Positions 3,367 through 17,138 of a stretch of 20,903 nucleotides of DNA are shown here, one piece after another. The stretch is from positions 1 to 20,903 of the IMG/VR virus record IMGVR_UViG_3300037584_003056; one strand, given 5' to 3'. Below the pieces are notes generated by a model. The model was not told the origin of the DNA. It ran no database searches and was given only the letters and a program-made list of their open reading frames with translations. Origin of the DNA: a virus. Position 1 is the first letter of the stretch. Each line of letters opens with the position of its first letter. The position numbers and the translations under genes were made by a program.

Positions 3367-3747
3367 TTATCTGTTTCTCAACTCCTGTATGTACAGGCAC
3401 TCGTTGCATCTATCCTGCATTTGACCCTTTTTAATTTTTTTAGATCTAAGCAGTAAAAAATTTCCGCACGCGCATTTGCATACCCACATACTTCCGTTGC
3501 AATTTTTCTTCGTATTTAAATCTTTACCAAGAACGGTTATGCGTCCATTTTTTCTACCTACCATTTCATTATAAAGTTTTCTCTCGTCGCCCAGCGCCGT
3601 GTGATCCGCTTTTCTAAAATATATCGGATCCTTGTAGACGTTTTTTAATTCTTTTTTAGGCGTGAAGTGAGTGCCCTTCGATAAGACTACTCTCGCAGCA
3701 TTACCGTTAATAGGCGTAAAATATTTATTAGCTTTACTTGTTACCAT
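3367..3747 (-). CDS. Small zinc-ribbon-like protein
   Basis: 126 residues from the ATG at 3747, chosen over an upstream in-frame ATG at 3783 because GGGAG lies seven bases before it. The C-terminal part reads WVCKCACGNFLLLRSKKIKKGQ and then CNEC, giving cysteines at about 90, 92, 94, 114 and 117, a probable zinc ribbon or zinc knuckle. Similar CxCxCG...Rxxx(I/L)xxG...CxxC segments occur in phage HNH and AP2-type DNA-binding proteins, so DNA binding is a fair guess. No HNH catalytic histidines are visible. It is the last gene of the minus-strand module and is separated from the previous one by about 54 bases, so it may also have its own promoter. Confidence 0.75.
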   Translation of the reverse strand: MVTSKANKYFTPINGNAARVVLSKGTHFTPKKELKNVYKDPIYFRKADHTALGDERKLYNEMVGRKNGRITVLGKDLNTKKNCNGSMWVCKCACGNFLLLRSKKIKKGQMQDRCNECLYIQELRNR

Positions 3748-3801
3748 TACAAATCTCCCGGTTGTATACTTTAACTGTAACATACAAATTTTGCAAATTT
3801 A

Positions 3802-4029
3802 CTAGTTGACGTTATTTTTTTTATTTAATTTTTTTATTGCCTCATTTATTTCTTTATCTGATCCGTCAGTTTCAATAATCCTGCCATCATTTTTATCATA
3901 ATATCTTTCGTATTTTGGATGCGTGTATCCATTGTAGTCATAATAAAAATGTAATTCCAAATTTTGTTTTAGTTTATTTTTGGCGACGAGCTCCCACTCG
4001 TCACCGTTGTCAATAAATAGAGCATACAT
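3802..4029 (-). CDS. Small unknown protein in the minus-strand module
   Basis: 75 residues: an N-terminal beta-type stretch (YALFIDNGDEWELVAKNKL), a tyrosine-rich middle (HFYYDYNGYTHPKYERYYDKNDG) and a lysine/asparagine-rich helical end (KEINEAIKKLNKKNNVN). I recognise no family. The start ATG overlaps the TAA of the upstream gene by one base (TAATG) and is preceded by AAGGGAG, so it is very probably translated by coupling. It is more AT-rich than the terminase genes. Confidence 0.7.
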   Translation of the reverse strand: MYALFIDNGDEWELVAKNKLKQNLELHFYYDYNGYTHPKYERYYDKNDGRIIETDGSDKEINEAIKKLNKKNNVN

Positions 4030-4223
4030 TATTTAACTCCCTTACGCTTAGACGCCGCCGATGCGCGCCTTGCGGCTCTGTTTGTCGAGCCGTCCAAAAC
4101 TCTATTTCTTCTCCCGTGGCCTCGCCCGGACAATGAGAAACTATGTCCGAGCTGAGATCCAGCGGCAAGAAAACTATCAAACGTCACACTCGTGTGACCT
4201 TTTACGTTTCCCTTCTTTTTCAT
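4029..4223 (-). CDS. Small basic unknown protein
   Basis: 64 residues, strongly basic at both ends (MKKKGNVKGH at the start, RRASAASKRKGVK at the end) with a small serine/glycine-rich middle (SQLGHSFSLSGRGHGRRNR). No known domain. It has an excellent ribosome binding site, AAGGAGG seven bases before the ATG, and overlaps the stop of the upstream metalloprotease gene in a TAATG. The composition suggests a nucleic-acid-binding or disordered protein, but that is inference from charge alone. Confidence 0.65.
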   Translation of the reverse strand: MKKKGNVKGHTSVTFDSFLAAGSQLGHSFSLSGRGHGRRNRVLDGSTNRAARRASAASKRKGVK

Positions 4224-4861
4224 TACGCTACCTCCTTAGCTATTTTCTGTGCAGCCATACGCTGGCTCCAGTTTAAGTTACCTTTAAACCCGGCCCTCCA
4301 TAGGGCGATGCAGACTTTACGAACTACCGGGTCATTACAAAACTTCTCTCGAAGCATAGAGTAAATATCCTTGAAGCCGTCACCGTGCGCCTTACGCATA
4401 TACTTACCCCAGTATCCCGGGTCACTATGATACAGATTGTGCTGCACAAAATGTGAGAGCTCGTGTAAGACTTGGATCAGGTTGCCATGATCGACGTCGC
4501 CTTTTTTGACGTGCATACCACCGCACTTAGGATCCGCATCAAAGTGACAATACTCGTTCCAGTAGTAGTGCCCCGGCTTGACGTAACCCAGCTTTTTAAA
4601 TCTAGCCTTAACGCCTTGAGATTTACCGCTGATGACGTTTTCAATTTGCCAGTAAGTCGTGCAAATTATTATGCTATCAAAACCAGCCCGGCTACAATTG
4701 CTGCGCCTGTTAGGAGCCTTAACGACTAGCACGTCGTGTGCCTTTTGCTTTTGCTCCTTAGTCATTTGAAAGCGGTAACCGTCGAGGTAATTCAATGCAT
4801 CAGTAATGATGTTATGAAAAAACTCTGTTTGGTTCGATAGACTATATGGATTGTCTGACAT
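4223..4861 (-). CDS. SprT-like zinc metalloprotease
   Basis: 212 residues. HELSHFVQH at about 133-141 is the HExxH zinc site, with E134 as the catalytic glutamate, and a third zinc ligand is likely H159 in KAHGDGFKDIYSMLR. This HExxH plus HGxxF arrangement and the small size fit the SprT-like family, whose cellular member SPRTN cleaves proteins crosslinked to DNA; a role in DNA-protein processing is inference. Upstream cysteines (C105, C113) could be structural. The start has GGGAGG seven bases upstream and forms a TAATG overlap with the previous gene. A phage copy in a separate module beside unknown small genes suggests cargo acting on host proteins or on the viral DNA, rather than a structural role. 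Confidence 0.78.
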   Translation of the reverse strand: MSDNPYSLSNQTEFFHNIITDALNYLDGYRFQMTKEQKQKAHDVLVVKAPNRRSNCSRAGFDSIIICTTYWQIENVISGKSQGVKARFKKLGYVKPGHYYWNEYCHFDADPKCGGMHVKKGDVDHGNLIQVLHELSHFVQHNLYHSDPGYWGKYMRKAHGDGFKDIYSMLREKFCNDPVVRKVCIALWRAGFKGNLNWSQRMAAQKIAKEVA

Positions 4862-5241
4862 TATGATACCTCCCTTTGAATTATTAAGCCCTTCTTGAGC
4901 ATTTCCTTAGCTGACGTAATATCGCCCCTCTCCAAGTTATCGAGAGCCCAAGCAACCCAACTCTCAGCGCTCTTGACAAGCTTTACATCGTCAGAGCTGG
5001 GGAGCTCTGGCTCGTAAAGACCTACCGGCGCATCAGGATCATAAGGCGCAACAATATTGCCGTCAGGATCTCGAGTTAAATTATCATTCGCCATTGATCC
5101 CACTTTATTGGCGTTTAACCAGTTGATGAGATCCTGCTTAGATGTAGGCACGTCAACCTCGGTCCAGTCGCGAGGAGCGCCCCGTTGGGCGTCCCTCTGT
5201 GTTCCAAACCATTGACCATAGCTGCTATTATATAAACGCAT
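4861..5241 (-). CDS. Unknown protein in the minus-strand module
   Basis: 126 residues from the ATG at 5241, preferred to an ATG at 5265 because GGGAGG precedes it by seven bases. The N-terminus is MRLYNSSYGQWFGTQRDAQR, followed by DWTEVDVPTSKQDLINWLNANK, then a proline/aspartate-rich linker (about residues 60-85), and a helical C-terminus (SAESWVAWALDNLERGDITSAKEMLKKG). The DLINWLN segment and the W-rich N-terminus are seen in phage proteins of unknown role; I cannot assign a function. It overlaps the metalloprotease start by one base and is probably co-translated with it. Confidence 0.7.
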   Translation of the reverse strand: MRLYNSSYGQWFGTQRDAQRGAPRDWTEVDVPTSKQDLINWLNANKVGSMANDNLTRDPDGNIVAPYDPDAPVGLYEPELPSSDDVKLVKSAESWVAWALDNLERGDITSAKEMLKKGLIIQREVS

Positions 5242-5254
5242 TATTAAACCTCCC

Positions 5255-5590
5255 TTACCATTCACGTCTGTCGTGTATTGGTAAAATACCGTGGCTCATT
5301 CCCTCAGCCTTATACCGACTGTCACAAGTTCCGCCATAATTTCCGCCAGCCATATACCAGCCCTCACATCGAACCCACTCACCCTTTTCGTCGTCCCACT
5401 CCGCCGGTACTAGCTTTGGATATGGTGTGCCTGTTGGGCGGTCATCTACCAATAGAACCGCTGCATCTTCTGCGTCTGGTTCAAAAGGACCCTCAGCATT
5501 TACCACAATTAAATTATCATGGAACTTTGATACACCGTCCATTGTGCAATCCATTCCGCTACTTCTATAAACAGAAACACGTAAACCCAT
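5255..5590 (-). CDS. Unknown first gene of the five-gene minus-strand run
   Basis: 111 residues, beginning MGLRVSVYRSSGMDCTMDGVS and continuing with beta-type stretches (DNLIVVNAEGPFEPDAEDAAVLLVDDRPTGT) and a PAEWDDEKGEWVRCEGWYMAGGNYGGTCDSRY segment. The end is rich in Gly, Tyr and charged residues. No family recognised; the pattern fits a small globular beta-rich protein. An ideal AAAGGAGAT lies seven bases before the ATG, and a candidate promoter sits about 45 bases further upstream, so this gene leads the transcription unit. Confidence 0.75.
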   Translation of the reverse strand: MGLRVSVYRSSGMDCTMDGVSKFHDNLIVVNAEGPFEPDAEDAAVLLVDDRPTGTPYPKLVPAEWDDEKGEWVRCEGWYMAGGNYGGTCDSRYKAEGMSHGILPIHDRREW

Positions 5591-5634
5591 TTTTTATCTC
5601 CTTTAAAAATTTTTAAAAATTAACTTATACTAAG

Positions 5635-5663
5635 ATAGTATGTTATTATTCTGTTAACATCAA
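5635..5663 (-). promoter_or_regulatory. Candidate sigma-70 type promoter for the minus-strand module
   Basis: On the minus strand, TTGATG (complement of 5658-5663) and TACTAT (complement of 5635-5640) are separated by exactly 17 bases, four of six matches each. The downstream region is very AT-rich and leads to the strong ribosome binding site of the gene starting at 5590. The match is moderate, so the assignment rests mainly on position. Confidence 0.4.
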
Positions 5664-5701
5664 GTTAATAATGCAACTAAATATCCAGGAAAATCAATGA
5701 C

Positions 5702-6043
5702 TTAAGATTTTTTTTCTTCGTAGTGAAAAATGCGATGACAGTTTGCACACAATATTTGGCACTTTGCAGCCTCCTCATATGCACGCTTCCATTGCTTGTG
5801 AGATATGTATTTACTGACTTTTGTATCTCCTTTTGCTTCTGGATGGTGGAAGTCGATAGCTGCCGGGTGAGAAAATCCGCACTTTTCACATCTTAACTTT
5901 GATTTGAATTCCCACCATTTATCTCTGTGTCTCTGGACGTGTTTTTTATTACTCGCCAAAACTTTTTCTCTGTTTTCGAGATACCACTTCATACCGTAAG
6001 ACCTGTTGTAAGTCTTACGCCGCTCTTTACTTTTATACGGCAT
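5702..6043 (-). CDS. HNH endonuclease
   Basis: 113 residues. A basic helical N-terminus (KSKERRKTYNRSYGMKWYLENREKVLASNKKHVQRHRDK) is followed by a zinc-bound HNH core: CEKCG (C52, C55), AIDFHHPE (H66, H67), and CQILCANCHRIFH (C99, C102, H103, H107). The four-cysteine zinc site and the FHH...N...H catalytic set are all present, so it should be an active DNA-cutting enzyme. Small free-standing HNH genes in phages are often homing endonucleases, and some act with terminase at cohesive ends; both are possible since it lies one module away from terL. The start has AGGAG five bases upstream. It is separated by 111 bases from the next gene of the module. Confidence 0.88.
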   Translation of the reverse strand: MPYKSKERRKTYNRSYGMKWYLENREKVLASNKKHVQRHRDKWWEFKSKLRCEKCGFSHPAAIDFHHPEAKGDTKVSKYISHKQWKRAYEEAAKCQILCANCHRIFHYEEKKS

Positions 6044-6125: not shown

Positions 6126-6197
6126 AGCGGTGGGTTCCCTTCTGCCGTAGAGCCCTAGGAGCTCCCCCGTGTGTCCTCCCACGCACGGGGTTTATTT
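6126..6197 (+). ncRNA. Possible short RNA or attenuated leader
   Basis: Between the candidate promoter at 6091 and the intrinsic terminator at 6165-6197 lies a GC-rich stretch that is unlike its AT-rich surroundings and has no start codon with a ribosome binding site. It contains small self-complementary words (GGGTTCCC, GGAGCTCC). The promoter-RNA-terminator order with nothing coding between is the pattern of a small RNA or of a leader whose terminator can be bypassed. No RNA family recognised. Confidence 0.35.
6165..6197 (+). terminator. Strong intrinsic terminator before the small-protein operon
   Basis: CCCCGTGTGT (6165-6174) pairs with ACGCACGGGG (6181-6190) over ten base pairs with one T.G wobble and a six-base loop (CCTCCC), followed by TTTATTT. 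It works on the plus strand; the minus-strand reading has no T-run. Since no plus-strand gene lies between 3242 and here, it must end a short transcript, stop read-through from terL, or attenuate the operon that begins at 6247. Confidence 0.8.
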
Positions 6198-6212
6198 AAC
6201 TTAAAAATAATG

Positions 6213-6221
6213 TATTATAAG
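6213..6221 (+). promoter_or_regulatory. Possible -10 region for the small-protein operon
   Basis: TATTATAAG directly after the terminator contains two overlapping -10-like hexamers (TATTAT and TATAAG, five of six matches each). No good -35 box is visible at 16-18 bases. The position, about 25-30 bases before the ATG at 6247, is right for restarting transcription after the terminator. Confidence 0.3.
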
Positions 6222-6246
6222 GCAGCAAACATGAAGGAGGCTTATC

Positions 6247-6357
6247 ATGCCAAAAGTTGGTGGTAAAACATACGCATACAATACTAAGGGAATGAAGGCT
6301 GCAAAGAAGGCAGCTAAGAAAAAAAAGAAAAAAGTTACTTATAGTAAGGGTAAGTAA
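6247..6357 (+). CDS. Very small lysine-rich protein (36 aa)
   Basis: ATG at 6247 with AAGGAGG six bases upstream, the best ribosome binding site in the area. The protein starts MPKVGGKTYAYNTKGMKAA and then runs into a lysine/alanine tract (about residues 20-29 are nearly all K or A). More than a third of residues are lysine. Phage genomes from the sea often carry such PKVGGKxYxYT(P/K)KG proteins of unknown role; I recall the pattern but not a named family. It overlaps the next start in a TAATG. Binding of the packaged DNA or other polyanion is inference from charge. Confidence 0.75.
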   Translation: MPKVGGKTYAYNTKGMKAAKKAAKKKKKKVTYSKGK

Positions 6358-6533
6358 TGGCTAAGGGTGTTAAGCATTATTTCCGAGACGGGACTGAACA
6401 TAAAGGTGGTATGCATAAAATGCCTAATGGTCAGGTTCATTCTGGTAAAACTCACGGTAAAAATAGTAAGCGTCTTTTTCATTTTAAAGATTTAAGTGAA
6501 GCTTCTAAGAAAAAAGCAAGAAAGAAAAAGTAA
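6357..6533 (+). CDS. Small basic protein (58 aa)
   Basis: ATG at 6357 overlapping the preceding TAA. The sequence begins MAKGVKHYFRDGTEHKGGMH and continues with KMPNGQVHSGKTHGKNSKRLFHF, ending in a lysine tract (SKKKARKKK). The HKGGMHKMPNGQVHSGKTH segment is histidine and glycine rich and resembles small conserved proteins of marine phages. Highly basic, no membrane segment or known catalytic motif. It is translationally linked with both neighbours, and the family is likely a head-associated or DNA-binding accessory. Confidence 0.75.
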   Translation: MAKGVKHYFRDGTEHKGGMHKMPNGQVHSGKTHGKNSKRLFHFKDLSEASKKKARKKK

Positions 6534-6703
6534 TGGCCGTAAAGGGAACTAGAAAAAAGTCTTCGAGCCCGAAGCCTAAAAACCCAAAACTCTACTCCCG
6601 GGTAAAGTCTGAGGCTAAGAAAAAATTTAAAGTCTATCCGTCTGCGTATGCAAACGCATGGCTTGTAAGAGAATATAAAAAGCGCGGCGGTACTTATGCC
6701 TAA
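6533..6703 (+). CDS. Small basic protein with YPSAYANAW motif (56 aa)
   Basis: ATG at 6533 overlapping the preceding TAA. After a basic, probably disordered start (MAVKGTRKKSSSPKPKNPKL) comes YSRVKSEAKKKFKVYPSAYANAW (motif at 35-43) and a closing LVREYKKRGGTYA. This small domain, with its YPSAYANxWxxxxYKKRGG signature, recurs in marine phages and in large eukaryotic viruses, usually beside a DUF5872-like protein as here. Its function is unknown to me. The domain looks compact and helical, and the basic tail suggests contact with nucleic acid. Confidence 0.8.
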   Translation: MAVKGTRKKSSSPKPKNPKLYSRVKSEAKKKFKVYPSAYANAWLVREYKKRGGTYA

Positions 6704-6923
6704 GTCATCAGGCGGATTAACGAAGTGGTTTAAGCAGGACTGGCGCGATGTTAAGACTGGTAAAAAGTGTGGACGCACAAAGTCTAAGAAAGATAAGGGT
6801 AGGCCGTATCCGGCCTGTCGTCCTGCAAGTCAGGCCAAAACAGCCTCAGCTAAAAAGGCGGCAAAAAGAAAAACTGGACCGAAGCGCATAAGCTGGAAAA
6901 CAAAGAAGGGGTCTAAAAAATGA
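6696..6923 (+). CDS. DUF5872-like small basic protein
   Basis: 75 residues. The opening SGGLTKWFKQDWRDVKTGKKCGR followed by GRPYPACRP (cysteines at 25 and 41) matches the pattern I know for DUF5872: a GGLxxWFxxxWxDxKTGxxCGR segment and a YPACRP segment. The C-terminal third is a lysine/alanine-rich tail that looks disordered. The two cysteines may bind zinc or form a disulphide. The gene overlaps the previous one by eight bases and the next by four (ATGA). The same domain pair with the YPSAYANAW protein is seen in other viruses, so they likely act together. Confidence 0.8.
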   Translation: MPKSSGGLTKWFKQDWRDVKTGKKCGRTKSKKDKGRPYPACRPASQAKTASAKKAAKRKTGPKRISWKTKKGSKK

Positions 6924-7369: not shown

Positions 7370-7650
7370 GTAAGAAAAAAGATCCACGACTAGCCCGGGC
7401 TGGCGTCAGCGGCTTTAACAAGCCGAAGCGCACGCCCAATCACCCAAAGAAAAGTCACGTCGTCGTGGCTAAGGAGGGCGACAAAGTTAAGACAATTCGC
7501 TTTGGGCAGCAGGGTGTAAGTGGAGCCGGGAAGTCGCCAAAGACGGCGAAAGACAAGGCGCGCCGCAAATCTTTTAAGGCGAGGCACGCAAAAAATATAT
7601 CCAAAGGTAAAATGTCAGCAGCCTATTGGGCAAATAAGGAAAAGTGGTGA
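7366..7650 (+). CDS. Conserved basic phage protein
   Basis: 94 residues, strongly basic throughout: MSKKKDPRLARAGVSGFNKP, then KRTPNHPKKSHVVVAKEGDKVKTIRFGQQG, then SPKTAKDKARRKSFKARHAKN and a closing KGKMSAAYWANKEKW. The sequence recalls a small protein I know as widespread in marine phages and cyanophages (KSHVVVAKEGxKxKxIRFGQQGVxGAG ... RRxSFKARHxKNIxKGKxSAAYWAxKxKW). It has no assigned function that I can name. The single-base TGATG overlap with the next gene shows coupling. A DNA-binding or internal head role is inferred from charge and position near the portal. Confidence 0.8.
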   Translation: MSKKKDPRLARAGVSGFNKPKRTPNHPKKSHVVVAKEGDKVKTIRFGQQGVSGAGKSPKTAKDKARRKSFKARHAKNISKGKMSAAYWANKEKW

Positions 7651-8783
7651 TGGCTAATCCTATTTTAGATTTATTACGTTTTACTATGAAAGGCTCTAAC
7701 TATTTTAAAAAGCCTAGATTTGACACTAGCAGATTAAAAGATCCAGCTCTTTATTCTGGGTTTTCTTTAAATAAACACAGAACAGCTCCATTTAATTATA
7801 ATGTTGAGGGTGATTTACTTGGAAATTTAATAAAGCCGAAAACTGTAAGTCCGTCTGACTTACAGGGTAAAACAATGTATTTTGCTGCTGGGGATAGAAC
7901 TTCTAGTGATAGAGTAATAGACCAGATAAATGATATTTCATTATTAAATCCTGTAAAAACATACGGCGGTCCGACATATATGGATGAAGGTAAAAGAGCG
8001 TGGGCATCAGAGCCTACGGCAATGAAATCTAAAGCAAACGCATTTAAAGAGGCCGCTGACAGAGGAGAAGATGTTGTATTAAGTTATATGCCTATGGGAG
8101 AAAGATCAGGAGATTTTTCTGAGCACATGGCAAATACTTATTTAGAAGTATTAAAGTCTAGCCCTGTAGGATCTAATAGCTATCCAATTTTAGATGAAGC
8201 TATAGCTGCAAAATTTCCAAAAATTGCAGATCAAATACCTAGTCTTAAAAATAAAGAAAAATTTGCTAACTGGTTGCTCAAACAAAAAGGCGGTAGACGA
8301 TCACAATTTATAAAATTTTTTGATAGTAGTTTAATGCAAGATTTAGGTATGCCCGACGTTGGGGCTGTTCGTTTTGCAATTACTAATCCAGATTTAGTTA
8401 ATTCCAAAGCTTTAAGTGTTGGTTATAGAATGAGCCAGCCTGATCTTTTATCTGGTATGATTAAAAGTTCTGATCATCCATCTTACGGTGCATTTGTTCC
8501 TAAAATGAAGAATGCACCCGGTAGTATGACTTTTGAAACTGAATTACCATTTATTATAGGTGCAAGAGACACAGCTTTACCTAAAATTGCAGCCGGTAAG
8601 ATGGATGCTTTACCAAAAGATATAAAATCTTATATGGGTAACCCAAGATTAAGTCAAAAAATTGATCAGCAGTTTGTAGATGAAGCGGAAACTTATTCTC
8701 AAATTTTAAATACTTTAGGCCAGAAAAGTGCAGACGATTATACTTTTGGTTTATTAGAACAATACATAAGAGGTCTTAAATAG
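7650..8783 (+). CDS. Polyvalent-protein-like protein, probably carried in the virion
   Basis: 377 residues from the ATG at 7650 (TGATG overlap). It is clearly more AT-rich than the terminase or portal. Two blocks stand out: GKTMYFAAGDRTSSDRVIDQINDISLLNPVKTYGGPTYMDE (about 73-113), and MPDVGAVRFAITNPDLVNSKALSVGYRMSQPD (about 234-265) followed by HPSYGAFVPKM. Both recall segments of the very large polyvalent proteins of phages, which are delivered with the DNA and contain many enzyme domains; here they stand alone as a small gene. No catalytic residues can be named. The last eight bases overlap a convergent minus-strand gene. The family link is from memory of the pattern, so medium confidence. 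Confidence 0.7.
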   Translation: MANPILDLLRFTMKGSNYFKKPRFDTSRLKDPALYSGFSLNKHRTAPFNYNVEGDLLGNLIKPKTVSPSDLQGKTMYFAAGDRTSSDRVIDQINDISLLNPVKTYGGPTYMDEGKRAWASEPTAMKSKANAFKEAADRGEDVVLSYMPMGERSGDFSEHMANTYLEVLKSSPVGSNSYPILDEAIAAKFPKIADQIPSLKNKEKFANWLLKQKGGRRSQFIKFFDSSLMQDLGMPDVGAVRFAITNPDLVNSKALSVGYRMSQPDLLSGMIKSSDHPSYGAFVPKMKNAPGSMTFETELPFIIGARDTALPKIAAGKMDALPKDIKSYMGNPRLSQKIDQQFVDEAETYSQILNTLGQKSADDYTFGLLEQYIRGLK

Positions 8784-8916
8784 TGTCTTTTATCAATTCC
8801 ATTATATCGTCTATCGAGTCCTCAATATCTTTCGGTAAGTCTTCTTTTTTAGTCCATAATAAATATGCTAAAGCAGTAATTTCATTTCTTATTGGTTCTA
8901 GTTCTTCTATTTCCAT
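8776..8916 (-). CDS. Small acidic protein encoded on the minus strand (46 aa)
   Basis: An ATG at 8916 on the minus strand has AAAAGGAG eight bases upstream, as good as any site in the window. The frame runs 46 codons: MEIEELEPIRNEITALAYLL, then WTKKEDLPKDIEDSIDDIME, then LIKDTI. The protein is acidic and looks like two or three short helices. The competing plus-strand frame over the same bases (8783-8989) has no ribosome binding site and an unnatural Ser/Ile/Leu composition, so the minus-strand gene is the better reading. It is the only leftward gene within the late region and starts 15 bases from a perfect palindrome. Function unknown; a small regulator or anti-host protein is a guess. Confidence 0.7.
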   Translation of the reverse strand: MEIEELEPIRNEITALAYLLWTKKEDLPKDIEDSIDDIMELIKDTI

Positions 8917-8930
8917 TTTACTTTCTCCTT

Positions 8931-8945
8931 TTAACACTGTGTTAA
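8931..8945. promoter_or_regulatory. Perfect palindrome, possible operator
   Basis: TTAACAC (8931-8937) and GTGTTAA (8939-8945) are exact inverted copies around a single T. The site lies between the divergent starts of the 46-codon minus-strand gene (8916) and the plus-strand gene at 8980. Symmetry, size and position fit a dimeric repressor operator; the spacing is too small for an RNA hairpin. No repressor gene is seen in the window, apart from the unknown small gene itself. Confidence 0.5.
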
Positions 8946-8979
8946 CAAAAAATAATAATAAGGTAAAGAGGCGTTTATT

Positions 8980-10125
8980 ATGGCTGTAAAATCTTACCCC
9001 GGACCAATGTTTGGACCGTCTTATTCTTTACTAGATCAAATGACAGAAGTGTCTAGGAGAAACCCGGGAGGCCCACAATTAATACCTAGAGATACTACTT
9101 TTGCAGAGAACATGACTGACCTTCTCACGCCCTATATTGGTAAGAATACGTCAAGAAGATTATTCGGTGGGGCTATGCCGGGGTCAAATAATTCCGGCAT
9201 TTTAAATTATCTTGATAACGCCGGTTTAGCTAACGTTCTACCCGTAACCGCTGGAGTAATGTCAGGCGGTCAGGCCGTCAAAGATTTTAGAGCTGGCAAC
9301 TATAGCGACGCCGCATTAAATACAGGCTTTGCTGGCTTAGATCTTGGTTTAAGCGGCCTCGGCCTAAAACAAGCCTTAAAAACGTCTGCAAGACCTGCTA
9401 AGTCATTGAAATCCCAGGGAAAAATACCCGATTATGAGGATGCAGCTCACTTTATGAGAGTAAACGAAATGATGGGTAATATGCTCAGGCCGCCATCAGC
9501 GACAAACCCAAAATATATACCAAGCCGTTTTGATCGTTTAGGTGTTCACGTAGGATCTCCACCTCAGGCAGCCGATAGATTTAAATTTAGCGTTGGCGAT
9601 AAACTAGATATTAACCAAGCTGGTTTAAAAGGTCAGACATTTCCTTTAAAAATTAGAACAGATAAACCATTTGAAATTAAAGATTTTGAAGAGTTTGGAA
9701 TTAAACCAGATTTAAGGTTTGATATGACAGAGGTCATAGATGGTAAAACGGTTTTGACTGAGGATGGCGTAAGAGAAGTTATGAATACATATGCTGATGC
9801 AAAAAATGTAAGTTTAGAAGATGGCGTAGATTTATTTAGAAAAGAATTAACTGACAAAGGTTATACCAATATTCCCTATGTTAATCTTATAGAGGGAATG
9901 GATAGGAGCGCTGGAGGCGTCATGGAAACTTATAGAGCTGGCCTTGATGATGTTTTTACAAAAGAAAACATAAGCAACATTATGTTAGTTGACAGAACTG
10001 CTAACGATCCGGCGGTAATTAAAAGCAGATTTGCAAAATTAAAAAATATATATGACCCAAATATAATGGCTGGCCTAGCTGGCCTTGGCCTGTTATCGCA
10101 GATAGAAAATGAGGAAGGCGAGTAA
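8980..10125 (+). CDS. Polyvalent-protein/ART-like domain protein
   Basis: 381 residues. Residues 1-140 contain a Gly/Ala-rich amphipathic segment (VLPVTAGVMSGGQAVKDFRAGNYSDAALNTGFAGLDLGLSGLGL) as seen in phage internal proteins. Residues about 186-362 carry RLGVHVGSPPQAADRF, FPLKIRTDKPFEIKDFEEF, KELTDKGYTNIPYVNLIEG, NISNIMLVDRTANDPAVIKSRF and YDPNIMAG. In order and spacing these match the GVHVG...(Y/F)PL.(I/L)...NP(L/F).I.D.........GYdgIpY.N..EG......(D/P)..QIKSrf....(F/Y)DP pattern that I know from ADP-ribosyltransferase-like domains of polyvalent phage proteins. Whether the catalytic residues survive cannot be decided by eye. AGAGG lies eight bases upstream of the ATG. The portal starts two bases after its stop. 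Confidence 0.72.
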   Translation: MAVKSYPGPMFGPSYSLLDQMTEVSRRNPGGPQLIPRDTTFAENMTDLLTPYIGKNTSRRLFGGAMPGSNNSGILNYLDNAGLANVLPVTAGVMSGGQAVKDFRAGNYSDAALNTGFAGLDLGLSGLGLKQALKTSARPAKSLKSQGKIPDYEDAAHFMRVNEMMGNMLRPPSATNPKYIPSRFDRLGVHVGSPPQAADRFKFSVGDKLDINQAGLKGQTFPLKIRTDKPFEIKDFEEFGIKPDLRFDMTEVIDGKTVLTEDGVREVMNTYADAKNVSLEDGVDLFRKELTDKGYTNIPYVNLIEGMDRSAGGVMETYRAGLDDVFTKENISNIMLVDRTANDPAVIKSRFAKLKNIYDPNIMAGLAGLGLLSQIENEEGE

Positions 10126-10126
10126 G

Positions 10127-12256
10127 ATGGAAAATGAAATAAGCGAACTCGTGCAAGAGCTGGAAGCTGAACTCGATCCTAACATCATGGACGATGAGGA
10201 GCTGAAAGGCATCGTAGGAAAAGAGATAGACGACGCAATTGATTTTGTCGATAACTGGGTATCTCCACTGCGCGCCACGGCCACTGAATATTACAGGGGA
10301 GATCCCTTCGGTAATGAAGAGGCCGGGAGATCTCAAATTGTAAGTATGGATGTCCGGGACACCGTACAGGCCATTATGCCATCTCTTATGCGTATTTTTA
10401 ATTCTACTGAGAACACGGTGGAATACGCGCCTCAAGGACCTGAGGATATAGAGGCGGCAAAGCAAGCGACGGAATATGCCCGGTACGTTATCAACAGAGA
10501 CAACGACGGTTTTTTACAGATCCACGCAGCCTTTAAAGATGCTCTAATTCGTAAAGTAGGCGTACTAAAATGCTACTGGGATGATCAGACAAAATTTGAG
10601 ACACACGACTGGACCGGGCTAGACGATAATGCTCTCGCAGCTCTCATGTCAGATAATGACGTTGAGGTTCAAGTCTTAGCCTCTCAGCCAGCCGGTGAGC
10701 CTATGATGGATCCGATGACGGGTGAAATGTTACCGCCTCCAATGGTGCACTCAGTGAGGGCTACATACACTCACCCGGACGGTAGAGTTAAGATGGAGGC
10801 CGTGCCACCTGAGGAGTTCCTAATTTCTCGTGAAGCAAAATCATTGGATCAGGCGTCATATGTCGGCCACCGCCGGGTTATGACTGTATCCGAGCTCGTC
10901 GCTATGGGATACGACTACGACACAGTGTCAGACGCCGGGGCTAACTATGATGACATGGAAAGCAACATAGAGCGATACACTAGGAATAAATCTTTGACTA
11001 GTGAGATGCATGACCGTGACGACAAGGCGATGAAAAAAGTTCTATATGTCGAAAGTTACATAAAAGTCGATTATGACGGCGATGGCATAGCAGAGCTTAG
11101 AAAAGTTTGCACCGTAGGTGACGAGAGTATTGTTCTTATGAACGAGCCGTGCTCAGTCGTCCCATTTGCTGTATTTTGCCCGGATCCAGAGGCTCACGAT
11201 TTCTTCGGTATGAGTGTCGCCGACGCCGTCATGGATATACAAAAAATTAAATCTTCTATCATGCGTAATACTCTAGACAGCCTCTCAATGTCTATTCACC
11301 CACGCATGGCAATTACTGAGGGTATGGTTAATTTAGACGACGCCATGTCAACTGAAGTGGGATCCATAATCCGCCAGAGGCAAAACGGAGCCGTTCAAAT
11401 GCTCAGTATGCCATTTGTCGGTCAACAGGCATTCCCGGTCTTAAAGTATATGGATGAGCTTAAAGAGGCCCGTACAGGCATCTCTAAAGCCTCGGCAGGG
11501 CTCGACGCTGGAGCCTTGCAGTCTTCGACGGCTGCCGCCGTTAACGCCACTGTGAGCGCCGCACAGCAACACATAGAGCTGATTGCACGTATATTTGCCG
11601 AGACTGGCATGAAGCAATTATATAAAATTGTTTTACACTTATTAACCACGCACCAAGACGCGCCGCGCATGGTACGGCTGACTAACGATTTTATCCCGAT
11701 AGATCCCCGTACTTGGAATAGCAATATGGACGTCTCTGTCCGTGTCGCTCTTGGGCGTGGCACAGACACTGAGCGTATGATGATGCTCAAACAGATCGGT
11801 GAGATGCAGAGAGAGGCAATGCAGACTATGGGCGCGGTGAACCCACTGACTGATATTAATAAGCTTGCCAATACACTGAAGGCGATGACAGAGCTTGCCG
11901 GGTTTAAAGATACCTCGCAATTCTGGAGTGACCCGGCACAATTCCAGCCGCCTCCACAAGAGGATAAACCAGATATTCAAGAGCAACTCATTGCCGTTCA
12001 AATCCAGCAGATACAGGCCGACATTCAGAAGAAGGCGGCGGAGCTTAATTTAGAGCGCGATAAAATGATGATGGATGATGATCGCAAACGAGATGAGCTT
12101 GACGCTGATTTATTTGTTAAGGCTGAGGAAATGAAGGCTAAGTATGGAACGCAGCTAAACGTCGAAAAAATCAGATCAGATCTGGCTATTAATCGTGAAG
12201 TCATGAAGGCTCAAGCTGAAGTATTAAAAGGCGCTGTAGATGATAAAGAAAACTAG
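10127..12256 (+). CDS. Portal protein (P22/Sf6-like)
   Basis: 709 residues from the ATG at 10127 (AGGAAGGCGAG upstream), the usual size for this class. Twelve copies form the ring at one capsid vertex through which DNA enters and leaves. The N-terminal EYYRGDPFGNEEAGRSQIVS (55-73) followed by DVRDTVQAIMPSLMRIF and TATEYARYVINRDN-type helical stretches is the P22-like portal signature. DYDGDGIAELRK near residue 306 is a DxDGDGxxE loop that could bind calcium and is common in this group. GAQSSTAAAVNATVSAAQQ-type residues follow in the ring-forming helix. The last 90 residues are a charged helical region (QQIQADIQKKAAELNLERDK), likely the barrel or coiled coil extending into the head. The end overlaps the next gene by 17 bases. 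Confidence 0.92.
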   Translation: MENEISELVQELEAELDPNIMDDEELKGIVGKEIDDAIDFVDNWVSPLRATATEYYRGDPFGNEEAGRSQIVSMDVRDTVQAIMPSLMRIFNSTENTVEYAPQGPEDIEAAKQATEYARYVINRDNDGFLQIHAAFKDALIRKVGVLKCYWDDQTKFETHDWTGLDDNALAALMSDNDVEVQVLASQPAGEPMMDPMTGEMLPPPMVHSVRATYTHPDGRVKMEAVPPEEFLISREAKSLDQASYVGHRRVMTVSELVAMGYDYDTVSDAGANYDDMESNIERYTRNKSLTSEMHDRDDKAMKKVLYVESYIKVDYDGDGIAELRKVCTVGDESIVLMNEPCSVVPFAVFCPDPEAHDFFGMSVADAVMDIQKIKSSIMRNTLDSLSMSIHPRMAITEGMVNLDDAMSTEVGSIIRQRQNGAVQMLSMPFVGQQAFPVLKYMDELKEARTGISKASAGLDAGALQSSTAAAVNATVSAAQQHIELIARIFAETGMKQLYKIVLHLLTTHQDAPRMVRLTNDFIPIDPRTWNSNMDVSVRVALGRGTDTERMMMLKQIGEMQREAMQTMGAVNPLTDINKLANTLKAMTELAGFKDTSQFWSDPAQFQPPPQEDKPDIQEQLIAVQIQQIQADIQKKAAELNLERDKMMMDDDRKRDELDADLFVKAEEMKAKYGTQLNVEKIRSDLAINREVMKAQAEVLKGAVDDKEN

Positions 12257-12506: not shown

Positions 12507-13508
12507 ATGTCAGAAACCAATAACCCAAATGGGACTGATCTGAACACAGCAACTAATGCAATTAAAGCCTTACTAACGCCCCAAGAGGATACCGTGACGG
12601 AGGAACAGGTTGCGCTTGAGACTGAAGCTACTGAAACTGAACAAGTTGAAGAACAGGTAGAAGAAGTCGAAATGTCCGAGGATACGCAAGTATCTGAAGA
12701 CGGTCTTGAAGTTGAAGAGGAAGCAGAAGAATTCGAAGACGCATCTCTGGACATACTTGGACAAGTAGTCGAAGTAGACGGCGAGGAGATAACTGTTGAA
12801 GAGCTCAGACGCGGAAACCTAAGACAAAGAGATTATACACGCAAAACTCAAGAGCTTTCTGAATACAGAAAATCAGTAGAAGCTCAAGCAATTGAGATGG
12901 AGCGTGAACGTGCTCAATATGCTCAAATGCTTCCTGCATTGCAGGATCGTTTAGAGCAACAGGAGCCGGAGCCAGATTGGGACACTCTGTATGATCAGGA
13001 TCCTAACATGGCAAGGAAGGCAGAACGTGCTTGGCAGAAACAGCAAAAGGAGCGACTAGCTTCTATTGAAGCCGTTAAAGTCGAGCGTGAGCGAATGCAA
13101 CAGGTTGATGCAGAGCGCATACAAAATATGCAAATGCAATACCAAGCGCAGCAGCGAGAAATTTTGCCCGACTTAATCCCGGAGTGGCGCGATACAAAAG
13201 TCGCAGCGAATGAGGCTAAACAGGTCCGTGACTTTCTCCTTGGAGAAGGATTTTCGGAGCAAGACATTAGCGGATTAACAAATGCGACGCTTGTAAAAGT
13301 AGCGAGGAAAGCCATGCTGTATGACAAAGGGCAGACTAAAGCGACGGAGGCAAAGACTAAGCCTAAGAAGCAACAGCCCAGAACTCTAAGAGCTGGATCT
13401 CGAAACACGCAGCCAAAACCTAAGACTGAGCAAAAACAAGCGCTACAACGCGCACGTCAAACTGGCAAAGTGGCTGACGCCGCTGCCGCAATTAAACACT
13501 TACTCTAG
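12507..13508 (+). CDS. Scaffold protein
   Basis: 333 residues. It lies between portal and major capsid gene, the standard place for scaffold, which guides capsid assembly and then leaves. Composition supports this: residues about 25-85 are extremely acidic (long runs of E and D with V and T), 115-230 is highly charged and coiled-coil-like with many Q, E and R (LEQQEPEPDWDTLYDQDPNMARKAERAWQKQQKERL, then KVERERMQQVDAERIQNMQMQYQAQQRE), and the end is basic (KPKTEQKQALQRARQTGKVADAAAAIKHLL), which in scaffolds binds the coat. The LPDLIPEW...VRDFLLGEGFSEQDISGL segment is also seen in related scaffolds. GGAG lies seven bases before the ATG. Confidence 0.85.
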   Translation: MSETNNPNGTDLNTATNAIKALLTPQEDTVTEEQVALETEATETEQVEEQVEEVEMSEDTQVSEDGLEVEEEAEEFEDASLDILGQVVEVDGEEITVEELRRGNLRQRDYTRKTQELSEYRKSVEAQAIEMERERAQYAQMLPALQDRLEQQEPEPDWDTLYDQDPNMARKAERAWQKQQKERLASIEAVKVERERMQQVDAERIQNMQMQYQAQQREILPDLIPEWRDTKVAANEAKQVRDFLLGEGFSEQDISGLTNATLVKVARKAMLYDKGQTKATEAKTKPKKQQPRTLRAGSRNTQPKPKTEQKQALQRARQTGKVADAAAAIKHLL

Positions 13509-13517
13509 GAGGCTGTA

Positions 13518-14480
13518 ATGGCTATTACTACCAATACGTTCACATCCTTTGATGCCAAAGGTATTCGTGAGCAACTTTCGGACGTGATAAGTTCGATCTC
13601 ACCTGAAGAGGTCCCACTGCAAAGTAACCTTGGAACAGTCAATGTTTCCAACACATATTTTGAGTGGCAAACCGACTCACTAAACGCTGTTTCAAAAACG
13701 GCGAGAGCTGATGGCGATGACGTAGGAAACACTTTCGACGCTACATCTGCAACAACTCGTGTCGGTAACTATACGCATATTTTGCGTAGAACAGCTATCG
13801 TCGCTGACAACCTTTCTGACCAGTCCTTAGCAGGGCGCAACGATGAAATGGCGATGCAATTGGCGAAGCGTGGACGCGAATTACGTAGAGACTACGAGGC
13901 CGTTTTCACGGATAATAACGCCCAAGTTTCCGGGAACACAAGTACACCGCGTGAGACTGCTGGCTTAGGTGCATGGATTGCAACTAACGACGTTATGGGT
14001 TCAGCAGGGAGCCCTGCAAGTCCAACTGGCGACGGTACTGACGCTCGTACTGATGGTACACAGCAAGTATTCACTGAGGCTATGGTTAAAGAAGCAATGC
14101 AGTTAGCATTTACTTCTGGCGGTAAGCCATCAATTATGATGACTGGCCCGTTCAACAAAACCAAAGTATCAGGTTTTGCTGGTATCGCTGCACAGCGCTA
14201 CATGGCTCCAAGTGATGGTCCAACCACCATTATAGGTGCGGCTGATGTCTATCTGTCGGATTTCGGCAGCTTATCCTGTGTAGTTAACCTTTTTCAAAGA
14301 GAAAGAGACTGCTTTCTGTTAGACCCAGAGTTAGCAGAAATCGCTGTTCTACGTCCTATCCAGACCGTTGATCTAGCCAAAACTGGTGACGCAACCAGAA
14401 AAATGGTTATCGGCGAGATGGGCTTACAGGTTACTAATGAGGCTGGACACGCTGGCGTGTTCGATCTTACAACATCATAA
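13518..14480 (+). CDS. Major capsid protein (SU10/DUF5309-like)
   Basis: 320 residues, ribosome binding site AGGAGG seven bases upstream, the strongest of the head genes. It forms the HK97-fold shell. The start MAITTNTFTSFDAKGIREQLSDVISSISPEEVPLQSNLG and the segment RVGNYTHILRRTAIVADNLSDQSLAGRNDEMAMQLAKRGRELRRDYEAVFTDNNA match the DUF5309/SU10 major head protein pattern. Further matches are KPSIMMTGPFNKTKVSGFAG and the Gly/Asp-rich ending. The length is normal for the family and there is no N-terminal protease segment, consistent with a separate scaffold. A GC-rich hairpin follows the stop. Confidence 0.9.
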   Translation: MAITTNTFTSFDAKGIREQLSDVISSISPEEVPLQSNLGTVNVSNTYFEWQTDSLNAVSKTARADGDDVGNTFDATSATTRVGNYTHILRRTAIVADNLSDQSLAGRNDEMAMQLAKRGRELRRDYEAVFTDNNAQVSGNTSTPRETAGLGAWIATNDVMGSAGSPASPTGDGTDARTDGTQQVFTEAMVKEAMQLAFTSGGKPSIMMTGPFNKTKVSGFAGIAAQRYMAPSDGPTTIIGAADVYLSDFGSLSCVVNLFQRERDCFLLDPELAEIAVLRPIQTVDLAKTGDATRKMVIGEMGLQVTNEAGHAGVFDLTTS

Positions 14481-15932: not shown

Positions 15933-17138
15933 ATGGCAAAGTTATTTAATAGAGCCAAGATGGGAACTTCAACAACTGGCGCAGGGACGGTGACCCTTGG
16001 CAGTGCTGAAACAGGTTTCCAGAGCTTTGCTGATGCAGGAGTATCTGATAACGATGTTGTCCAGTATGTTATTGAAGACGGTTCTAATTGGGAAATAGGT
16101 ACTGGAACTTATGCTGCAAGCGGCACAACATTAACACGTTCTCCAAGTGAAAGCAGTGGTGGCGGTAGTGCGCTATCTCTTAGTGGAGGTGCAAAAGTTT
16201 CTATTACTGTTATAGCTGATGATTTTAAAAGACTTCAGCTAGCAGGGGCTACAAAAGCAGAGGCTACTTCTGGCGGTTTAGATGTTACTGGAAATATTGT
16301 TGTAAGTGGTAATGTTGACGGTAGAAATGTTGCTACTGACGGCGCAAAACTAGATGGCATAGAAGCAAGTGCAACGGCTGACCAAACAGATGCAGAAATA
16401 AAAACTGCATATGAAAACAACTCCGATACAAATGCTTTTACCGACGCTTTGCAAACTAAACTTAATGGTATTGAAACAGGCGCAACTGCTGATCAAACTA
16501 AATCAGACATAGATGCTTTAAATATTAATGCTGACCAAGTAGATGGGGTTGACGCAAGTAGTTTTGTACGAAGTGATGCGGCTGATACTGCATCGGGAGA
16601 TATTACGTTTTCGGGTGGCGCAGGAGCAGTAACTATTTCTGGCGGTAGCGATATTAGGTTTGATCAAGGTACTTGGACAGGGGAAGCTACTTGTAAAATA
16701 CAGCATCACTCAAACCATATGTATTTGCAATACAATAACAGCGGTCAAATGATTTTTAGAGATAGTGCAGGCGCTAATAATTTTCATTTTGATGCAAGTG
16801 GTAATTTTGTGGCAAGCGCTAACGTAACGGCCTATTCTGATATTAGGCTTAAAAAAGATATTGTTACAATAGATAATCCTATTGATAAAATCAAAGCAAT
16901 GCGTGGTGTTTATTATAAAGAAATAGAAACAGACCGACTTAGAACTGGTGTAATTGCTCAAGAACTTGAAAAAGTTTTGCCAGAGGTGGTTATAGATATT
17001 GAAGATACAAATCCAGAGACAGGCGAAACAACAACTACTAAATCTGTTGATTACGGCAATATGGTTGGTTTGCTAATCGAAGCCATAAAAGAGCAGCAAG
17101 ATGAAATAGGTCGACTAAGAGCTATAATTGAGGGCTAA
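15933..17138 (+). CDS. Tail fibre with S74 self-cleaving chaperone domain
   Basis: 401 residues. The N-terminal 95 residues ([23 protein letters not shown]...[33 protein letters not shown]) are a virion-anchoring type known from many fibres. Residues 130-205 contain two copies of a K-L-(D/N)-G-I-E-x-x-A-T-A-D-Q-T motif, typical of trimeric shaft segments. From about 298 to the end lies an S74 intramolecular chaperone: [11 protein letters not shown] with catalytic S302 and K307, then [16 protein letters not shown] and [21 protein letters not shown] as trimer-forming helix. Such domains help the fibre trimerise and then cut themselves off before the catalytic serine. Both catalytic residues are present. 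Confidence 0.9.

Follow-up and report, generated by a model that had tools for sequence, protein, structure and literature searches.

According to PMC9437464, the box recognised by CtrA is TTAA-N7-TTAA, and CtrA binds and regulates promoters of several phages of Alphaproteobacteria, one of which precedes a previously undetected ORF of 68 aa (DELTA_120). That phage genes can stand behind CtrA boxes is hence already known. The phages described there under 'lytic deferment' (phiCbK, vB_BsubS-Delta and Cp1R7A-A1) have boxes before small genes of unknown function, as does the clade reported here, and in the low-positional-entropy (LPEG) phages of the same source the boxes lie in one gap or terminal-repeat region. 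A second point of comparison is given by phage repressors of the Arc/CopG type, small ribbon-helix-helix (RHH) proteins with an operator of two half-sites in their own leader. The half-sites of Arc are 11 bp apart, the same spacing as found in our clade. New here are the clade itself, the finding of the box together with an RHH gene, and a single conserved switch behind which small leftward genes are exchanged. Compared with the phages in PMC9437464, the clade is unrelated and uncultured and has an RHH gene alongside; each genome has only a few boxes, distributed among several promoters (those for lysis/early, cargo and RHH genes) instead of forming one dense region, and CtrA binding is predicted from sequence. 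Unlike in the Arc/CopG-type repressors, the operator coincides with the box of a host regulator.

The window, that is, the whole stretch of DNA analysed, is a 20,903-bp IMG/VR virus record (IMGVR_UViG_3300037584_003056, positions 1-20,903), and over its full length it is 100% identical to parts of a longer record, IMGVR_UViG_3300025101_000007 (36,347 bp, G001 below). It encodes an SU10-type portal and belongs to an uncultured marine or aquatic bacterial virus whose clade has many contigs in IMG/VR. Judged by terminase and portal, the closest cultured relative is Sinorhizobium phage phiM5, which shares the SU10-type portal (44% identical) and the large terminase (48%) but differs in being without a TTAA-N7-TTAAC site. 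We propose a podovirus-like phage of an alphaproteobacterium, where the host class is suggested by word usage and by this relative.

GANTC is the site of CcrM, which to our knowledge is restricted to Alphaproteobacteria. The window holds 3 GANTC sites in 20.9 kb (observed/expected 0.09), and 80 loci of the clade hold 232 against 2792 expected, with a ratio below 0.3 in 76 of them; neither contig G012 nor phiM5 has any. Control phages of SAR11, a betaproteobacterium and Pseudomonas gave ratios of 0.97, 1.09 and 0.82. A 12-kb piece of the alphaproteobacterial phage phiCbK gave 0.81, so loss of GANTC is not universal among alphaproteobacterial phages. The depletion along with phiM5 as nearest cultured relative points to an alphaproteobacterial host. 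Among genome contigs, portal relatives (74-76%) turned up in no more than two, the MAG contigs L134 and L135; these are labelled Opitutae and Desulfuromonadales, and are probably phage contigs binned by mistake. As a separate observation, CCNGG is nearly absent (observed/expected 0.00-0.04) in G002, G012, G016 and G017, four of six contigs; in the window and G001 it does not rank with the most depleted words, and it is low in some control phages too.

The features of the window that concern us are the following.

4223-4861, 4861-5265 and 5255-5590, minus strand: leftward genes (ORFs) behind the second operator copy
5653-5668, minus strand: second operator copy, TTAACTTGATGTTAAC as read on that strand, 63 nt upstream of the leftward gene starting at 5590; the box itself is 5654-5668
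7644-8783, plus strand: convergent gene of 379 aa, no known family
8776-8916, minus strand: 46-aa gene of a two-helix hairpin family, no known family
8925-8932, minus strand: Shine-Dalgarno sequence AAAAGGAG, overlapping the operator by 2 bases
8931-8945, no strand assigned: candidate CtrA-type operator TTAA-N7-TTAA, from sequence, conservation and recurrence in the clade
8980-10125, plus strand: divergent gene of 381 aa on the other side of the operator, no known family

The leftward ORF at 8776-8916 (ATG start, 46 codons and stop) is a real, coding accessory gene of the phage. The original prediction of an overlooked minus-strand gene with a well-placed Shine-Dalgarno sequence and an eight-base convergent overlap was borne out: AAAAGGAG stands 8 nt ahead of the ATG, and the ORF overlaps the convergent gene by exactly 8 bp (8776-8783). 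Leftward ATG ORFs of at least 46 aa behind AAGGAG number 3 in the window against 0.01 per shuffle, which along with a minus-frame omega of 0.19-0.35 (window against four relatives) places the ORF beyond chance. One plus frame across it is likewise open, with omega 0.31-0.54, so the choice of strand does not rest on omega alone. In every one of the 15 subgroup pairs the minus frame has higher protein similarity than the best plus frame, and a coding plus strand was rejected; nor do relatives show a preserved plus frame with a broken minus frame. A GTG start at 8937 (53 aa) was also rejected, as it lies inside the operator and reads TTG in nine aligned relatives beyond the same virus. The gene is not, as first thought, a lone leftward one among rightward genes, since other leftward ORFs fill 3367-6043.

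A protein search with the 46-aa gene found 10 contigs including the same virus, the other nine being 77-82% identical. An HMM run over all fetched loci gave a family of six subgroups, all six of which were seeds of the HMM, with 39-84% amino acid identity to the window copy (10 sequences aligned). Start, frame and Shine-Dalgarno are conserved among relatives, the last as AAAAGGAG in those aligned. The genomic slot of the gene differs between subgroups of related IMG/VR contigs, and a related site is always ahead of it; in the distant subgroups the homolog precedes the portal, either directly or at a distance of about 0.6 to 1.3 kb. AlphaFold2 predicts a confident helical hairpin (helices 3-20 and 29-45, pLDDT 89.7). 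We found no convincing family in PHROG (best E 0.0079, in 2 of 10 members) or Pfam (best E 0.05), no convincing DNA-binding family among these profiles, no Foldseek match at E<=0.001, no convincing distant homolog in named phages (best E 0.5), and no match in a search of genome contigs. Neither a terminator nor an Rfam RNA was detected at the locus.

The sequence TTAACACTGTGTTAA at 8931-8945, between the 46-aa ORF and the gene at 8980, is the perfect palindrome noted in the original prediction. It is present as described, and its outer base on the plus side extends the operator to TTAAC at 8942-8946. The window holds 9 perfect inverted repeats (arm >=7, loop 0-3) against a mean of 6.2 and a maximum of 13 in 30 shuffles, so a palindrome of this size alone is within chance. 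The symmetry is not conserved either: nine other relatives read TTAACACCTTGTTAA, which keeps the half-sites, alters the middle and breaks the third pair counted outward from the centre (innermost first). What is conserved is TTAA-N7-TTAA, and all six subgroups have TTAA, TTAG or CTAA followed by N7 and TTAA upstream of the 46-aa homolog. The permutation P for single leaders is 0.0003-0.048, and the window's own site taken alone is marginal (P=0.048). The functional mark of the site is thus its recurrence as TTAA-N7-TTAA at promoters of the clade, and not its symmetry. Direct- versus inverted-repeat logic, judged by eye from degenerate half-sites, gave no clear pattern.

The search for the palindrome in viral genomes that had been suggested yielded 14 IMG/VR contigs with palindrome and ribosome binding site. 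Ten of these have the 46/47-aa gene, while four have an unrelated 56-aa gene with the same operator, leader and spacing and with a convergent gene of 402 aa in place of the 379-aa one. The 379-aa (window 7644-8783) and 402-aa (L033, 3217-4425) genes, which exchange along with the 46-aa and 56-aa genes, are both without known family and look alike by eye in their C-terminal halves.

To count the box across the clade we used 80 loci (L049-L128) chosen by portal similarity alone; an earlier set of 88 loci had included the window and 7 contigs picked by gene or pattern, and the count was repeated without these. Both the 80 loci and the 15 long contigs used below include several close relatives, and the counts do not equal independent events. 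In a count of TTAA-Nk-TTAAC over all k from 0 to 20, k=7 occurred at 25 places in 23 loci and 20 distinct contexts, against a mean of 5.5 and a maximum of 10 over 20 shuffles; at no other k was the enrichment clear. The next-highest spacings gave 13, and k=11, 13, 14, 18 and 20 were slightly raised in the 88-locus or 80-locus counts. The box was present in all 15 long records, and a reversed-pattern control gave 0-1 match per strand. We take TTAA-N7-TTAA to be a predicted clade-wide operator.

Six contigs were read end to end, and in five of them a box stands at the junction where leftward and rightward-early genes diverge, at the positions below.

G001, position 10520: divergent-junction box
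G002, position 28508: divergent-junction box
G012, position 13256: divergent-junction box
G014, position 13673: divergent-junction box
G016, position 16362: divergent-junction box

In G001 the genes left of the junction include an endolysin (PHROG 465) and one with a weak match to Rz-like proteins; those to the right include a RuvC-like resolvase, an exonuclease and a primase-helicase. The same six contigs also have boxes ahead of leftward clusters and the 46/47-aa gene. The boxes lie upstream of genes with Shine-Dalgarno sequences, and most of the other sites are 20-65 nt from the starts; the few matches inside genes are probably due to chance. The intergenic boxes of G001 (10520, 21815 and 25092 of 36,347) are dispersed and do not form a single gap or terminal-repeat cluster; judged from positions, the clade lacks the clustering of the LPEG phages in PMC9437464. 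Scores for -35/-10 pairs around 22 non-redundant sites were 8.61 against 8.14 in shuffles (P=0.003), with no single geometry. Three terminal-repeat sites of phiCbK have the same C and G flanking the spacer as most clade sites, and one of them, TTAACGGTTTGTTAAC, is identical to a site in G017.

An Arc-like RHH family has a member in each of the 15 long contigs. PHROG 3887 alone found it in 3 of 15, and a family-alignment search was used instead, for which three of the first six members had served as seeds. The RHH leader contains, in all 15, a site matching 9-11 of the 12 positions of GTTAAC-N5-GTTAAC within 50 nt of the start; the permutation P is 0.0000-0.01 for each, several contigs being near-duplicates. 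Searching two family members by tblastn gave no match in 50,697 phage records.

We suggest host CtrA as the main reader of the box, and give this reading a probability of about 0.5. The 46-aa gene would then be transcribed leftward from a leader carrying a CtrA-type box that abuts the Shine-Dalgarno, and the same box would serve the divergent lysis/early junction, the second leftward cluster and the Arc-like RHH gene. Expression would follow the cell-cycle or motility state of the host, with the RHH gene as another target and its protein as a possible second reader. Since the box adjoins the Shine-Dalgarno and its near end is about 14 nt from the ATG, the transcription start should be located within the box or further upstream, and protein bound there would be expected to repress the 46-aa gene. 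Activation is conceivable at some other promoters, since most other sites are 20-65 nt upstream and the promoter scores are barely above those of shuffles. Against CtrA as the reader weigh the lack of the site in phiM5, whose host is alphaproteobacterial and whose lack of boxes slightly favours a phage factor, the labelling of the two MAG contigs with portal relatives as other phyla, the dispersal of the boxes, and the marginal P of the window site alone. Moreover, autoregulation in the phage would explain equally well why all 15 long contigs have an RHH gene whose leader contains a similar site. A literature search on CtrA, marine phage, Roseobacter and promoter found no paper, nor did one on RHH, phage and CtrA together.

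It is possible, although we consider it rather doubtful, that the box is instead bound as operator by an Arc-like RHH repressor which the phage encodes and which controls itself and the early and leftward genes including the 46-aa gene, and that the likeness of this operator to the CtrA box is coincidental. Besides the 15 of 15 leader sites, this would fit the placement of the RHH site in G012, G015, G016 and G017, where, as at the 46-aa gene, it touches the Shine-Dalgarno or comes close to it, and distant portal relatives without the sites gave no tblastn match to the two RHH family members. Regarding identity, the G017 protein passes the Pfam cut-off for RHH_3, the only one among those scanned, and the RHH protein matches the PHROG Arc-like repressor at E 5.8e-7, but the signals for G001 and G016 are below the Pfam cut-offs. 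Further, the recognition ribbon varies (KQIGPR, GQVGPR, KLKGYR) while the operators stay constant, which slightly favours a host factor, and a chance match to the exact CtrA spacing and half-sites seems improbable for a phage whose host probably has CtrA. Overlapping with the CtrA reading, we tentatively consider a further thought, which we hold to be unlikely, that the RHH protein evolved to read the host's CtrA box, so that one set of operators (at the lysis/early junction, before small cargo genes and before the RHH gene) is contested by CtrA and the phage repressor, and small host-acting cargo genes could be swapped behind the switch with no need for rewiring.

That the site is a conserved recombination junction between exchangeable cargo modules, or a product of chance, and not the target of a regulator, appears highly improbable. 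It does border a swapped module, and a single palindrome is not rare; however, k=7 is enriched among 21 spacings, the sites occur in unrelated contexts ahead of genes with Shine-Dalgarno sequences, and the half-sites stay while the middle varies. The self-regulating unit of the original prediction, in which the 46-aa protein represses its own gene via the palindrome, is harder still to credit: although the gene is next to the site and occurs with it across six subgroups, 4 of 14 contigs have the same leader ahead of the unrelated 56-aa gene, related sites are found at the distant RHH gene and lysis/early junction and in contigs where the 46-aa homolog was not found, and the protein is a predicted helical hairpin without a DNA-binding family. 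Control through a switch that host CtrA or the phage RHH protein reads is also a better fit than the early-expressed host-acting protein of the original prediction.

If CtrA does read the boxes, an uncultured clade would time its lysis, early and cargo genes by the cell-cycle or motility regulator of its host, and a strategy so far shown in a few cultured phages would be widened. TTAA-N7-TTAAC together with loss of GANTC offers an easy metagenome marker for such phages and their hosts, and the compact operator lends itself to a direct test of competition between the host regulator and the phage RHH protein.

Some further genes were seen along the way. The gene at 5255-5590 matches PHROG 6045, whose function is unknown, and HNH endonuclease-like genes lie at 3367-3783 and 5702-6043 in the leftward region of the window. 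In L031 a 208-aa gene (6133-6759) stands between the operator and the MAVKSYPG gene; by eye only it resembles a methyltransferase, and it weakly matches PHROG 2774, whose function is unknown. The 13 stretches scanned for tRNAs yielded just one, a tRNA-SeC-like gene (anticodon TCA) at 8373-8451 of L142 in G014.
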